Assembly (NCBI RefSeq): GCF_014199255.1
Contig: NZ_JACIJF010000001.1
Location: 372,001-436,000 of the forward strand
Source of the DNA: Sphingomonas xinjiangensis
GTDB lineage: Bacteria; Pseudomonadota; Alphaproteobacteria; Sphingomonadales; Sphingomonadaceae
DNA: 64,000 bases
Direction: 5' to 3'
In this document: positions 7,723 through 12,947 of the stretch, one piece after another
How positions within the stretch are numbered: position 1 is the first letter of the stretch
How the letters are laid out: each line of letters opens with the position of its first letter
Translations under genes and position numbers: made by a program
The notes under the pieces: generated by a model
Database searches by the model: none
Told to the model about the DNA's origin: nothing
What the model saw: the letters and a program-made list of their open reading frames with translations, nothing else

Positions 7723-8852
7723 TCGAATCGCCCGGCTTCCTGCTCACCCTCCTTGCCTTCGCGCTGGTGATCGGGCCGCTCGTTTTCCTCCACGAGATGG
7801 GGCATTATCTGGCCGGTCGCTGGTTCGGCGTGAAGGCGGAAGAATTCTCGATCGGGTTTGGCCGCGAACTCGCCGGGATCACGGATCGCCGCGGCACCCG
7901 GTGGAAATTCTGCCTGCTGCCGCTGGGTGGCTATGTCCGCTTCGCAGGCGACATGAACCCGGCATCTCAGCCTGCGGCCGACTGGCTGGCGCTGCCGGCG
8001 CATGAGCGGGCCCGCACTTTCCAGGCCAAGCACTTGTGGCAGCGCGCGATCATTGTCGCGGCTGGCCCGATCGCCAACTTCGTCATCGCCATTCTGATAT
8101 TGTCGGCGTTCGCGCTCGCCTATGGCGATAATCGCACGCCGAGCACGGTTGGGTTCCTGTTGCCGGGAAGTGCCGCCGCGCATGCCGGACTTCAGCCCGG
8201 AGACCGGATCACAGCGCTGGGTGGCCGGTCTGTCGCGACCTACACCGACATGGTTAAGTACACCCAGCTTCGCCCCGGCGAAGCGGTAACGATCGACTAT
8301 GAGCGTGCCGGGTCGGCGCGGTCGGTGGATGTCACCATCGGCGTACGGGTCGAACGCGACCGATTTGGCAACGAGTTCCGCATAGGCCGGCTCGGTATCG
8401 GTCCGAGCGACCCCGTGCAGCAACCAGTGAACGTGCTCCAGGCGCCGCTGGTGGGGCTGCGCATGACCGGCGACATCATCCAGATGACGCTGGATGGGCT
8501 GGGCCAGATCATCACCGGCCGCCGCTCGGTGGCCGAGCTTGGCGGCCCACTCAAGATCGCGCAGGTTTCGGGCGAACGGCTATCCATGGGGCCGACCGAA
8601 TTCGTTTTTCTGATCGCGCTCATCTCGATTAATCTGGGATTCATCAACCTGTTGCCAGTGCCGGTGCTGGATGGTGGGCATTTGCTGTTCTATGCAGTCG
8701 AAGCCGTACGCCGACGCCCGATAGAGCCGCGAGTGATGGAATGGGCCTATCGGGGTGGTCTGATCGCAATTCTGGCGCTGATGCTGCTGGTCACGTTGAA
8801 TGATCTTGGAGCATTGGGCTTGTGGAAGAACCTGGCCGGCTTGATCGGCTGA
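7719..8852 (+). CDS. rseP: Site-2 intramembrane zinc protease RseP
   Basis: Inner-membrane metalloprotease that cleaves transmembrane segments of anti-sigma factors and remnant signal peptides. The 377-residue product carries the zinc ligands in FLHEMGHYLAG (HExxH at residues 25-29) inside the first membrane helix, a central PDZ domain (about residues 125-200, beginning VGFLLPGSAAAHAGLQPGD), and the second active-site segment VPVLDGGHLLFY near the C-terminus. The start is TTG 7719, overlapping the dxr stop by 4 bases. Its location directly before bamA is standard. Confidence 0.95.
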   Translation: MIESPGFLLTLLAFALVIGPLVFLHEMGHYLAGRWFGVKAEEFSIGFGRELAGITDRRGTRWKFCLLPLGGYVRFAGDMNPASQPAADWLALPAHERARTFQAKHLWQRAIIVAAGPIANFVIAILILSAFALAYGDNRTPSTVGFLLPGSAAAHAGLQPGDRITALGGRSVATYTDMVKYTQLRPGEAVTIDYERAGSARSVDVTIGVRVERDRFGNEFRIGRLGIGPSDPVQQPVNVLQAPLVGLRMTGDIIQMTLDGLGQIITGRRSVAELGGPLKIAQVSGERLSMGPTEFVFLIALISINLGFINLLPVPVLDGGHLLFYAVEAVRRRPIEPRVMEWAYRGGLIAILALMLLVTLNDLGALGLWKNLAGLIG

Positions 8853-8929
8853 AGCGGTTAAGGCAGGGGCGGTATGTTCCGGCGTCGCATGGGCAGCGGC
8901 ATTTCTCGAAATCCGACTTGGGGTGGGAT

Positions 8930-11722
8930 GTGAATATCAAGACTGGCAATATCGGCACACGCGCAGTGGCGGTGCTTCTCGCGGGCACGATGCTCTCGGG
9001 AACGGCACATGCTCAGGCTGCCGGCCGTCCGGCGCCCGCACGCCAGCCCGCTGCCGGGCAAGCTGCGGCCGCTCCGCAAACGGCGCCTGCCGCCCTTGTG
9101 GTGCCTGTTCAGGAAGTTCGCACCGTCCGCACGCTGCGCGTCGAAGGCTCGCAGCGTGTCGAGCCAGAGACGGTGCTGTCCTATACCCGGCTGCGGGTCG
9201 GCGAGAACTACACCAACGAGACGATCGACCAGGCGATCAAGGACCTGCTCGCCTCCGACCTGCTTGCCGATGTCGAGATCGACGGCGCGCTGAGCGGCGA
9301 CCTCATCATCCGGATCAAGGAGAATCCGGTGATCAACCGGGTGGTGTTCGAGGGCAACAAGCGCCTGAAGGCCGACAAGATCCAGAAGGAAGTGAAGCTG
9401 TCGCCGCGGCAGATCTTCACGCGAACCGCGGTGCGCGCCGATGTCGCGCGCATCGTCGAGCTGTATCGCCGCCAGGGCCGCTTCGCCGCTAACGTGCAGC
9501 CTAAGATGGTCAGCCTGGACCAGAACCGCGTCGACGTCATCTTCGAGATCAACGAGGGTCCCAAGTCCAAGGTCCGCCAGATCAACATCATCGGCAACGA
9601 GGTGTTCTCCGACGGCGCGTTGCGCGGCGAAATGGCGACGAAGACGTCCAGCCTCAAAAACCTGCTGAGCTCGAACACGTCGTACGACCAGGATCGTCTG
9701 GCCTATGACCAGCAGAAGCTGCGTCAGTTCTACCTGACCAACGGTTATGCCGATTTCCGCGTGATCTCGGCCGTGGCGGAGCTCACCCCCGACAAGCGCG
9801 ACTTCATCATCACCTATGTGGTCGAGGAAGGCCCGCGCTATAAGTTCGGCCCGGTGACGGTCGACAGTGCGATCCGCGATTTCGACGACAAGAAGCTCGC
9901 CACCGCGCTAGCGATCAAGGAAGGCGACTGGTACAACGCCAAGGCAGTCGAAGACACGGTCGAACAGCTGAGCGAAACCGCTGGCGCGTTCGGCTATGCC
10001 TTTGCCGATGTTAAGCCCGAGTTCCAGCGCGACCGCGAGAGCCTGACGATGACGATGAACTTTCGCATCGCGGAAGCCAATCGTACCTATATCGAGCGGA
10101 TCGACATCACCGGCAACCGGCAGACCCAGGACAAGGTGATCCGCCGCGAAATGCGCGTGGCCGAGGGCGACGCCTTCAACACCTTCCTGGTCAAGCGTTC
10201 GCAGGACCGCATCAACAGCCTTGGTTATTTCCAGGACAAGTTCGAGATCGAGCGCAAGGAAGGCTCGTCACCCGATCGGATCGTGCTGGCGGCCAATGTC
10301 GAAGAGCGCGCGAACGGTGAACTGACGCTGTCCGCCGGCTTTTCAAGCCTGGAGCAGTTCATTCTTCAGGCCTCGATCCGCCAGCGCAACTTCCGTGGCA
10401 AGGGGCAGACGGTTTCGGCCTCGGTCGATTATTCGAGCTATTCGAAATCGGTCGAGCTGGGCTTCACCGAGCCGTATCTCTTCGATAGCAATGTCGCCCT
10501 GGGCGGCACGCTCTTCCGCCGCGATTACAACGCGTTCAACTATATCGGCAGCGACCGTAATACGACCTACAGCCAGGTCTCGACCGGTTTTCAGATCGTC
10601 GCGGGCGTGCCGCTTACCGAATATTGGACGCTGTCGGGCCGCTACCAGCTTGCCCAGGATAACGTCACACTCGACAAGAGCAGCTTCTATTCGGACACCA
10701 ACGGCGACGGTATTCGGGACACCTGCGATCCGCTGATCGCGGGGCGCTATTATTGCGACGCCGTCGGTAACCGCCTGACCTCACTCGTCGGCGTCTCGTT
10801 GATTTACGACAGCCTCAACAGCCGTTTGCGTCCGACGCGCGGGCAGCGGCTGACGATCGGCGCGGATTTCGCCGGCCTTGGCGGCGATGTCCGTTACCTG
10901 CGTGGCCGTATCGACGGTGATAAATACTGGAACATCGGCAAGGGCTTCATCTTCTCGTTGTCGGCCGAAGGCGGCTACATTCACGCACTCGAGGATAGCC
11001 CGGGGGCGGGAAGGGACCCGATCCGGATCACCGACCGCTTCTATCTGGGTGAACCCCAGTTCCGCGGCTTCGACATCCGTGGTGTCGGCCCCCGCGTGCA
11101 GCGTATCGGCTATACCGGCGATCCGCTTACCGGCACCCAGCTGCTGGTTGATGACCGCGACCGGATCATCGACGATGCCATCGGCGGCAAGGCATATTAC
11201 CTGACCAAGGCGGAGCTTGAGATCCCGCTTGGCGCCGGTGCACGCGAACTGGGCTTGCGGCCGTCGATCTATGTGATGGCGGGCAGCCTGTTCAACATCA
11301 CGCGGCCGCTCAAGACAATCGACTTCACGCAAGCCACGGATGCGGGCGGCAAGTTGCTGTTCAATGCCGATGGTTCGCCGACGTTGCTGCCCAAGGACAA
11401 CTTCCTGAAGGATGCAGCCGGTAATCAGCTGTACTTTGCAGGGGGGAACACGACCGTGACCACCACGTGCCAGGTCGGCTATGCTGCCGCAGCCGGCCAG
11501 CCGTGCGTGGGCACCACCATCAATCCGATCGCGAACAACCCGACGACGCCGTTCTTCGAACGTTATGTCGGTGACTCCGCGCGGCCGCGCCTCTCCATCG
11601 GTATCGGCGTCAACTGGAATTCGCCTTTCGGGCCCTTGCGCATCGACGTCGCCAAGGCGCTGCTCAAGAACGAAGGCGACGATAACAAGCTCATCACTTT
11701 CAACGTAGGGACTCAGTTCTGA
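8930..11722 (+). CDS. bamA: Outer membrane protein assembly factor BamA
   Basis: Outer-membrane Omp85 insertase that folds beta-barrel proteins. The 930-residue product starts at GTG 8930 behind GGGTGGG, with a signal peptide ending at about AHA-QAA. The frame is open further upstream, but that sequence does not resemble a signal peptide. Five POTRA-like repeats follow from about residue 60, then a 16-strand barrel ending in an aromatic residue (NVGTQF), the expected assembly signal. An extracellular loop at residues 589-600 reads as an acidic calcium-type loop (DTNGDGIRDTCD) followed by a second cysteine at 609. The skp-like gene starts inside its stop codon. Confidence 0.95.
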   Translation: MNIKTGNIGTRAVAVLLAGTMLSGTAHAQAAGRPAPARQPAAGQAAAAPQTAPAALVVPVQEVRTVRTLRVEGSQRVEPETVLSYTRLRVGENYTNETIDQAIKDLLASDLLADVEIDGALSGDLIIRIKENPVINRVVFEGNKRLKADKIQKEVKLSPRQIFTRTAVRADVARIVELYRRQGRFAANVQPKMVSLDQNRVDVIFEINEGPKSKVRQINIIGNEVFSDGALRGEMATKTSSLKNLLSSNTSYDQDRLAYDQQKLRQFYLTNGYADFRVISAVAELTPDKRDFIITYVVEEGPRYKFGPVTVDSAIRDFDDKKLATALAIKEGDWYNAKAVEDTVEQLSETAGAFGYAFADVKPEFQRDRESLTMTMNFRIAEANRTYIERIDITGNRQTQDKVIRREMRVAEGDAFNTFLVKRSQDRINSLGYFQDKFEIERKEGSSPDRIVLAANVEERANGELTLSAGFSSLEQFILQASIRQRNFRGKGQTVSASVDYSSYSKSVELGFTEPYLFDSNVALGGTLFRRDYNAFNYIGSDRNTTYSQVSTGFQIVAGVPLTEYWTLSGRYQLAQDNVTLDKSSFYSDTNGDGIRDTCDPLIAGRYYCDAVGNRLTSLVGVSLIYDSLNSRLRPTRGQRLTIGADFAGLGGDVRYLRGRIDGDKYWNIGKGFIFSLSAEGGYIHALEDSPGAGRDPIRITDRFYLGEPQFRGFDIRGVGPRVQRIGYTGDPLTGTQLLVDDRDRIIDDAIGGKAYYLTKAELEIPLGAGARELGLRPSIYVMAGSLFNITRPLKTIDFTQATDAGGKLLFNADGSPTLLPKDNFLKDAAGNQLYFAGGNTTVTTTCQVGYAAAAGQPCVGTTINPIANNPTTPFFERYVGDSARPRLSIGIGVNWNSPFGPLRIDVAKALLKNEGDDNKLITFNVGTQF

Positions 11723-12471
11723 TGATCACCAAGAAGTGCATCCTCGCTGCGATGCTCGCCGCTCCAGCGACTCTTGCCATTGCTGCTCCGGTCCAGGCCC
11801 AGGTCTCCGGCATCGCCTCGGCAAACCCGGCTGCCGTTGTCGCAAGCTCCAAGGCCCTGACCGCCGCCCACCAGCAGATCTCCACGACCTACAAGGCTGC
11901 GTTCGATCAGATGCAGCAGCGCCGCCAGACGCTGGAAAACGAGCTCAAGCCGCTCATCACCCAGATCGACACCAACAAGGACGGTCAGGTCAGCGACGCC
12001 GAGCTGTCTGCTGCGCAGACAGCCAAGAACCCGGTGATCGAGCGTATCCGTACGGCACAGACGAATGCCCAGAACGATCTGTCACGCCTCAGCAACCCGG
12101 CCGCCCGCGCCGAGCTGTTCGCGATCGAGTCTGTTCTGCGCCAGTATGAGCCGGCGATGATGCGCGTCGTCAACGCGCGCAAGATTTCGGTCGTGCTCGC
12201 ACCCGAAGTGTTCCAGTATGCACCGGCCTCGGCGGATATCAGCACCGCTATCACTGCGGAGATCGACAAGACCACCCCGACCGTCAGCATTCAGCCCCCG
12301 GCCAATTGGCAGCCGTCGCGTGACACGATGACGATCCAGCAGCAGATCGCGCAGGCCGCGCAGATCCGCGCCTATCAGCAGCAGGCGGCACAGCAGGGTG
12401 GCGCAGCCCGTCCGGCGGCGGCGCCTGCTGCTCCCGCGGCGAACACCCCGCGCCCGGCTGAACCCCGTTGA
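11722..12471 (+). CDS. OmpH/Skp-like periplasmic chaperone with an EF-hand-type loop
   Basis: Skp-type chaperones hold unfolded outer-membrane proteins in the periplasm for BamA. The 249-residue product has a signal peptide (cleavage near APVQAQ-V) and the helical OmpH region with [16 protein letters not shown]. After a helical middle it ends in a low-complexity Gln/Ala/Pro tail. It is longer than E. coli Skp (about 160 residues). An acidic 12-residue stretch at residues 83-94, [12 protein letters not shown], fits the EF-hand calcium loop at every ligand position and lies where the coiled-coil tentacle would be. ATG 11722 overlaps the bamA TGA by one base. Confidence 0.85.
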
Positions 12472-12947
12472 GCGAAGCGGAAGCGACCGGCGGCACGAAC
12501 ATCGGCCCGCTCGATATCGGGCGGGTGATGGCGGCGCTTCCGCATCGGTATCCGATGCTGCTGGTCGACCGCGTCGAAGAACTCGTTCTCGACGAGCGCA
12601 TCGTGGCGATCAAGGCGGTCAGCATGAACGAGGGATTCTTCCAGGGTCACTTTCCTGGTCGCCCCATCATGCCTGGCGTCTTGCAAGTCGAAGCACTCGC
12701 GCAAGCTGCGGGCGTGCTGGCAGTGGAGAGCCTTCAGCTCTCCGGCTCTGGCAAGCTGGTCTATTTCATGTCGATAGACGGTGTGAAGTTCCGGAAGCCA
12801 GTTGAGCCCGGCGTGCTGCTTCGTCTTGAAGTCAGCTTCATCCAGAAGCGCTCTCGCGTCTGCAAATTCGCCGGCAAGGCATATGTCGAGGGTGAACTCG
12901 CCACGGAGTGCGAGTTTACTGCGATGATCGCCGATCCGCCCAAGTAA
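12468..12947 (+). CDS. fabZ: 3-hydroxyacyl-ACP dehydratase FabZ
   Basis: Dehydrates 3-hydroxyacyl-ACP to trans-2-enoyl-ACP in fatty acid elongation. The 159-residue hot-dog-fold protein has [14 protein letters not shown] and the active-site segment [20 protein letters not shown] with His61 and Glu75. The TTG start at 12468 overlaps the preceding stop by 4 bases. In many proteobacteria lpxD precedes and lpxA/lpxB follow this gene; all three are absent here. A strong terminator-like structure follows. Confidence 0.95.

Follow-up and report, generated by a model that had tools for sequence, protein, structure and literature searches.

A predicted EF-hand-type calcium loop at the tentacle tip of the Skp/OmpH-like chaperone of Sphingomonas xinjiangensis

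The Skp/OmpH-like chaperone encoded in the 64,000-nucleotide stretch of the Sphingomonas xinjiangensis genome analyzed here (referred to as the window) carries an EF-hand-type loop that is predicted to lie at the tip of its tentacle hairpin. In the reading that we favor, with a probability of about 0.6, the loop forms one calcium site per tentacle tip that is mainly permanently filled and has a structural or electrostatic role. Computation yielded four things, namely, the presence of the loop, where it is predicted to lie, its maintenance by selection, and a constraint on the charge of its ligands.

Skp, an escort of newly made outer-membrane proteins, is a model ATP-independent chaperone, and it is an open question how, with no energy source, it opens, grips its clients, and releases them. 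A naturally occurring Skp with an apparent metal site, found beside close relatives that lack the loop, is a ready system for the study of cavity opening and client release. If the predicted site is real, outer-membrane biogenesis would join the bacterial uses of EF-hands. The initial annotation of this DNA had remarked that calcium binding is not a known property of Skp, and consistent with that remark, no paper on Skp or OmpH with an EF-hand or calcium was found in the open-access (CC-licensed PMC) literature. The papers that did appear were irrelevant as far as their available text goes, because it mentions calcium solely through a calcium ATPase named in a legend (PMC4262575) or treats Skp as a lipase helper (PMC13028581), or Skp as a fusion tag (PMC3928792). 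Neither Skp nor OmpH occurs as a word in the main text of PMC3123361, which surveys calcium loops of the Dx[DN]xDG type.

A Skp/OmpH-like chaperone with an EF-hand-type loop

The skp/ompH gene (positions 11722 to 12471, forward strand) encodes a protein of 249 amino acids. The initial annotation had called this protein a Skp/OmpH-like chaperone, and this identity was confirmed by a match to PF03938 above the cut-off (38.2 versus 32.4 bits) and by the solved structures nearest to its predicted fold, 4kqt and 1sg2. PF03938 also matched all 31 rows of an alignment of diverse relatives (alignment A1) at an E value of ≤0.1, and the window gene was the sole OmpH match of the genome at ≤0.001; an NCBIfam search gave no match over the cut-off. 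Foldseek searches with the predicted structure returned 4kqt (E value, 5.4e-5; TMt, 0.57) and 1sg2_A (1.1e-3; 0.72). In VIA comparisons 4kqt (Z, 10.1; rmsd, 7.7 over 155 residues) and 1sg2_C (Z, 9.0; rmsd, 5.9 over 139 residues) stood above the best row other than Skp or OmpH (Z, 6.7), although Z values below about 13 can arise by chance for long helices. The protein is a member of the Skp fold as judged from its predicted model, which has a small beta body and a long helical hairpin. Among the matches listed, the nearest named relative was Sphingomonas sp. IC-56 (96% over the matched segment).

A signal peptide (11722 to 11799, forward strand; read by eye) is probably cut after A26, at an AQ junction, and both A26 and Q27 were invariant in 31 diverse relatives. 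The family model, the predicted fold, the adjacency to bamA, and the signal peptide are shared with the known Skp/OmpH systems (E. coli Skp, 1sg2 and 1u2m; the Caulobacter OmpH-like protein, 4kqt). The window protein differs from these systems in having an acidic EF-hand-type loop and a short extra helix at its tip, and a long C-terminal tail rich in Pro, Gln, and Ala.

Translation of the open reading frame placed the putative Ca2+ loop at residues 83 to 94 (11968 to 12003, forward strand), exactly where the initial annotation had located it. Its claim of an EF-hand consensus also held, with D83, N85, D87, S91, and E94 filling loop positions 1, 3, 5, 9, and 12. Scores of the window protein against EF-hand_5 (17.5 bits; cut-off, 25.9) and EF-hand_1 (13 bits; cut-off, 25.4) did not reach the curated Pfam cut-offs, which are a rule for detection rather than a definition of an EF-hand. 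When the whole assembly was scanned with EF-hand_5, the Skp loop ranked third of the 12 stretches found at an E value of ≤1 (20.5 bits; E value, 0.0026). The same model matched 13 of the 31 rows of alignment A1 at ≤0.1, though 26 of the 31 bear the loop. A profile of the family, in which those 26 rows are loop bearing, matched calcium-binding proteins in the PDB through the loop segment; the match to 2jnx had an E value of 0.0016 for the whole sequence, with single stretches weaker.

Canonical EF-hands of the calmodulin type (PF00036 and PF13202) share with the Skp loop a length of 12 residues, ligands at positions 1, 3, 5, 7, 9, and 12, hydrophobic residues at positions 8 and −1, predicted flanking helices, and an exit helix that starts at position 10. 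Glu at position 12 is the Ca2+-type ligand of EF-hands, most of which work in pairs. In contrast to the canonical form, the Skp loop is single, lies inside a coiled-coil hairpin, scores below the Pfam cut-offs, and often has Gly6 replaced. We describe it as an EF-hand-type loop that, judging from its sequence, would work like an EF-hand, and common descent with EF-hands is not claimed.

Stand-alone calcium loops in otherwise unrelated proteins have precedents among the Dx[DN]xDG loops of other folds, and the available text of the survey of these loops cites the insertion of a loop into CD2 as enough to create a Ca2+ site (PMC3123361). The Skp loop differs from the loops described there in its predicted helix-loop-helix setting and in keeping Glu12. 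A periplasmic EF-hand in an alphaproteobacterium is likewise found in CaBP of Caulobacter, but that protein, as described in the available part of its report, is a dedicated 133-amino-acid protein with three EF-hands and no chaperone of outer-membrane proteins (PMC13171946).

The proposal that the loop lies between two helices was borne out in AlphaFold2 predictions, at moderate pLDDT. In the full model (28 alignment rows; mean pLDDT, 71) the tentacle hairpin turns at the loop. The loop is flanked by an incoming tentacle helix corresponding to EF-hand helix E (residues 58 to 81; 11893 to 11964) and a short exit helix corresponding to helix F (residues 92 to 100; 11995 to 12021), which begins at loop position 10 and is followed by the long return helix of the tentacle (residues 104 to 152; 12031 to 12177), all encoded on the forward strand. 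Confidence at the loop was modest, with a mean pLDDT of 58 for residues 81 to 90 and 62 for residues 91 to 100. A 61-amino-acid fragment modeled alone (pLDDT, 74) reproduced this arrangement, and its exit helix again starts at residue 92, which is position 10 of the loop and thus the usual point for an EF-hand; the loop occupies fragment residues 28 to 39, and the pLDDT averaged 73, 69, and 68 over fragment residues 21 to 30, 31 to 40, and 41 to 50. Foldseek gave no significant match for the fragment (best E value, 2.8). The best VIA row for the fragment was an EF-hand, 5xop (EhCaBP1; Z, 4.8; rmsd, 2.5; 47 aligned residues), a weak match tied with unrelated rows.

With cleavage after A26 the loop spans mature residues 57 to 68, and by residue count the stretch KAGSDRTKLEK of E. 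coli Skp spans mature residues 55 to 65, so that the distance from the mature N terminus to the tip is similar in the two proteins. Because hhalign aligned the family with E. coli Skp over the C-terminal part alone, the tip was placed by this residue count and by the predicted helices. The tip at that place is basic in E. coli Skp, whereas the window Skp has the EF-hand-type loop there. The net charge of residues 70 to 110 had a median of −2 in loop-bearing and 0 in loop-less members of the family; the loop-less Sphingomonadaceae proteins thus do not have the basic E. coli tip either. The mature window protein is basic overall (pI, 9.3).

Conservation and history of the loop

After the merging of identical proteins, which reduced 263 sequences to 244 overall and 212 to 193 in the family, the 193 distinct Sphingomonadaceae Skp proteins fell into 104 in which each of the five ligand positions is filled and 89 with no loop, and none was intermediate in ligand score. 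The loop-less proteins scored 4.0 or less, like shuffled tips, which reached 4.8. This two-peaked distribution, with nothing between the peaks, indicates that loops do not persist in a decayed form. The proteins were sampled at the genus level (30 of 129 matches taken as loci, plus 60 of the remaining 99) and at the family level (30 of 173 matches as loci, plus 40 more). Among the first 57 loci, 56 had the loop, the exception being a Stakelama locus (L057), but this set is biased toward the loop, since 27 of its members came from a search that included the pattern DTNKDGQV.

Among 62 loop-bearing rows less than 75% identical, position 3 was N or D, position 5 was D or N, position 9 was S, T, D, N, or E, and position 12 was E, with positions 1 and 12 partly set by the search pattern (D at 1, E or D at 12). 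Position 8 was I, L, or V in 61 of these rows, and positions 2, 4, 6, 7, 10, and 11 varied. Column entropies were 0.40 and 0.55 bits at positions 3 and 5, compared to a median of 1.95 bits for the protein. When all 48 loops from a held-out set (described below) were added without thinning, the resulting 110 loops all had oxygen ligands at positions 3, 5, and 9 and Glu at position 12; Asp1 and I, L, or V at position 8 were each present in 109, and Gly6 in just 66. The codons of the ligands varied synonymously across 104 loops (position 1, GAC in 69 and GAT in 35; position 12, GAA in 55 and GAG in 49).

The ligand positions also compensated for one another. In the first 104 loops Asp3 occurred solely alongside Asn5 (6 of 6), and Asn3 together with Asn5 occurred solely with an acid at position 9 (3 of 3). 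Every loop thereby kept three or more acids among positions 1, 3, 5, 9, and 12. As this rule was conceived after the first set, four predictions were written down, and then new Skp proteins were read (n = 49, found by profile rather than by pattern, and including nine loci of a family search of 397 genomes). The loop was present in 48 of the 49, and the one without it (L409) was, together with L408, below the threshold of 200 bits named in the prediction; all 47 rows above the threshold carried the loop, with Asp1 in 46 and Asn1 in one (L399). Over the held-out loops Asp1 was found in 47 of 48 and Glu12 in all 48. The prediction of at least three acids held in 48 of 48, and the fourth preset prediction held in 3 of 3.

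Two stricter rules failed. The rule that Asp3 never occurs with Asp5, the third of the four preset predictions, was true of the first 104 loops and was withdrawn after both held-out loops with Asp3, L402 and L406, proved to have Asp5, and a strict requirement for Asp1 was broken by L399, in which Asn1 is accompanied by acids at positions 5, 9, and 12. In column shuffles that ignore kinship, loops with fewer than three acids were expected 2.4 times in the held-out 48 and observed 0 times (419 of 20,000 shuffles as low; P ∼0.02). For all 110 loops, with kinship again ignored, 8.1 were expected and 0 observed (0 of 20,000 as low). We read this compensation as a constraint on the charge that a bound cation would need. 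The held-out loops of L402 and L406, DTDGDGQLSQEE and DTDGDGQLNQTE, have acids at positions 1, 3, 5, and 12.

The initial annotation had staked its proposal on conservation of the ligands among close relatives. This expectation was exceeded in that the ligands are kept wherever the loop is present, more widely than proposed, but the 89 of 193 family proteins that have no loop count in part against it, so that conservation among sphingomonads is all-or-none and does not extend to every member. The doubt that a single genome would have left about the loop is removed by conservation; together with synonymous codon change and ligand compensation, it rules out a chance motif. That nearly half of the family does without the loop indicates that it is dispensable for Skp function as such.

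In the search of 397 family genomes, 375 had a match and the loop was present in at least 93, namely, all 92 rows at ≥200 bits, every one of which has it, and L408, with lower rows read in part. A table of 58 genus codes, drawn up from loci other than L031 to L057, listed 18 with loop-bearing proteins alone, 33 with loop-less proteins alone, and 7 with both. Outside the family, in samples ranked by similarity rather than taken as a census, no tip loop was seen in 24 Skp proteins from the order's other families (24 of 56 genomes with a match), in 67 from the class (27 plus 40, drawn from the 110 matching genomes that lie outside the family), or in 16 loci from a search of the phylum. A loose form of the pattern occurred away from the tip in two class rows (L191, in the first helix; L314, at residue 158), and one phylum locus (L290) had a pattern hit at residue 128.

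A tree of skp from which the loop columns had been left out (141 rows; quick search) showed two changes of the loop, and rooting on the outgroup resolved them as one gain (branch SH-aLRT, 99) and one loss within a Sphingomonas/Stakelama clade. On a tree of BamA plus FabZ (98 rows; FastTree, with long-branch warnings) the loop changed 10 times, 9 of them forced by starred branches. Grouping loop-bearing and loop-less skp of the same genus as one clade was rejected in all four finished tests, for groups that were named after the tree had been seen. The simplest reading is that lineages exchanged skp itself, with the locus fixed and the neighboring genes staying in place (L131, L136, L181, and others). 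An old duplication with differential loss is an alternative. The genus and family match listings contain one skp match per genome, some genomes in the search of 397 have a second match that is not among the matches listed, and the second matches listed for family genomes in the order-level and phylum searches are partial.

Predicted action of the site

Binding of Ca2+ by the loop is very likely. Calcium is taken to be the metal because Glu12 is present throughout and because Ca2+ is normally abundant in the periplasm, and we infer further that the chaperone forms trimers, so that the site would bind one ion per protomer and three per trimer in that compartment. The ligands would be Asp83, Asn85, Asp87, the carbonyl of Gln89, Ser91 (directly or via water), and a bidentate Glu94. 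Filling would neutralize the acidic tip, fasten both tentacle helices together as a fixed helix-loop-helix, and present a small hydrophobic face (Val90 and its neighbors). Calcium would thereby determine how stiff, how charged, and how sticky the cavity mouth is where unfolded outer-membrane proteins enter, and so affect the uptake of clients. The tentacles of Skp are highly dynamic and become more rigid with clients, as stated in the available part of a review (PMC8573040); a metal staple would act on this part of the protein. The upkeep of the ligands in loop-bearing relatives suggests that calcium may shape the working of the chaperone.

The initial annotation had gone further and proposed that periplasmic calcium could set the opening of the chaperone. 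In such a gate the site would fill and empty with periplasmic Ca2+, and the resulting tip states would open or close the cavity and regulate the uptake or release of clients. Loop conservation and ligand compensation fit a gate as they fit a permanent site, and an acidic tip is one that Ca2+ would neutralize. In E. coli Skp, according to the available text of PMC3458824, clients enter via the open bottom of the tentacles, where charge matters, and a periplasmic EF-hand sensor exists in Caulobacter (available part of PMC13171946). Millimolar Ca2+ could, however, saturate the site at all times, and related Skp proteins without the loop exist; a permanently filled tip with a structural or charge-neutralizing role is at least as likely, and we consider gating unlikely. 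Pairing of tips is quite improbable. Here EF-hands of two tentacles or two trimers would pair through position 8 when Ca2+ is bound and either close the mouth or form a two-trimer capsule for large clients, an idea that draws on the near invariance of I, L, or V at that position (109 of 110 loops) and on the single EF-hand per Skp chain, given that EF-hands normally pair; lone EF-hands too have a hydrophobic position 8. It is unlikely that tentacle tips turned into EF-hands in many sphingomonads so as to put Skp under calcium control, with Ca2+ switching the mouth between one state that is acidic and flexible and another that is neutral, rigid, and self-pairing and making outer-membrane assembly calcium responsive in bacteria that lack lipopolysaccharide (LPS).

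The remaining alternative, which we regard as very improbable, is that the loop binds no metal and is an Asp/Asn-rich helix-capping turn that merely resembles an EF-hand. The Pfam scores below the cut-offs, the moderate AlphaFold2 confidence at the loop, and the lack of a significant Foldseek match for the fragment would all agree with a capping turn. Such a turn would need neither the Glu12 nor the oxygen ligands at positions 3, 5, and 9 that are present in 110 of 110 loops, and it would need no compensation between positions 1, 3, 5, and 9.

The bamA-skp-fabZ locus

The skp gene lies directly downstream of bamA (8822 to 11722, forward strand; POTRA repeats and an Omp85 barrel from domain matches), as it does in E. 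coli. It is followed directly by fabZ (12468 to 12947, forward strand; FabA-like domain match), whereas lpxD follows skp in E. coli. The stop codon of bamA and the ATG of skp overlap (TGATG; 11720 to 11722), as do the stop codon of skp and the TTG start of fabZ (TTGA; 12468 to 12471), and translational coupling is therefore probable. PF13720, the LpxA C-terminal family, had no match in the genome and matched 4 of 14 control genomes, including E. coli and Caulobacter. Its absence here fits the absence of LPS from Sphingomonas, as reported in the available text of PMC2635482.

BamA has a Dx[DN]xDG-type loop of its own beside two Cys in the barrel (residues 625 to 636; 10694 to 10729), DTNGDGIRDTCD. 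In relatives this loop varies in length and acidity (SDLDGDG..CDP, TN-G-CDP) and is often just TNG or TDG before the Cys, and we therefore do not count it as a Ca2+ site that is conserved and linked to Skp. The bamA gene is listed from a GTG codon, and about 40 residues precede an apparent signal peptide (8822 to 8990, by eye), so that its true start may lie downstream.
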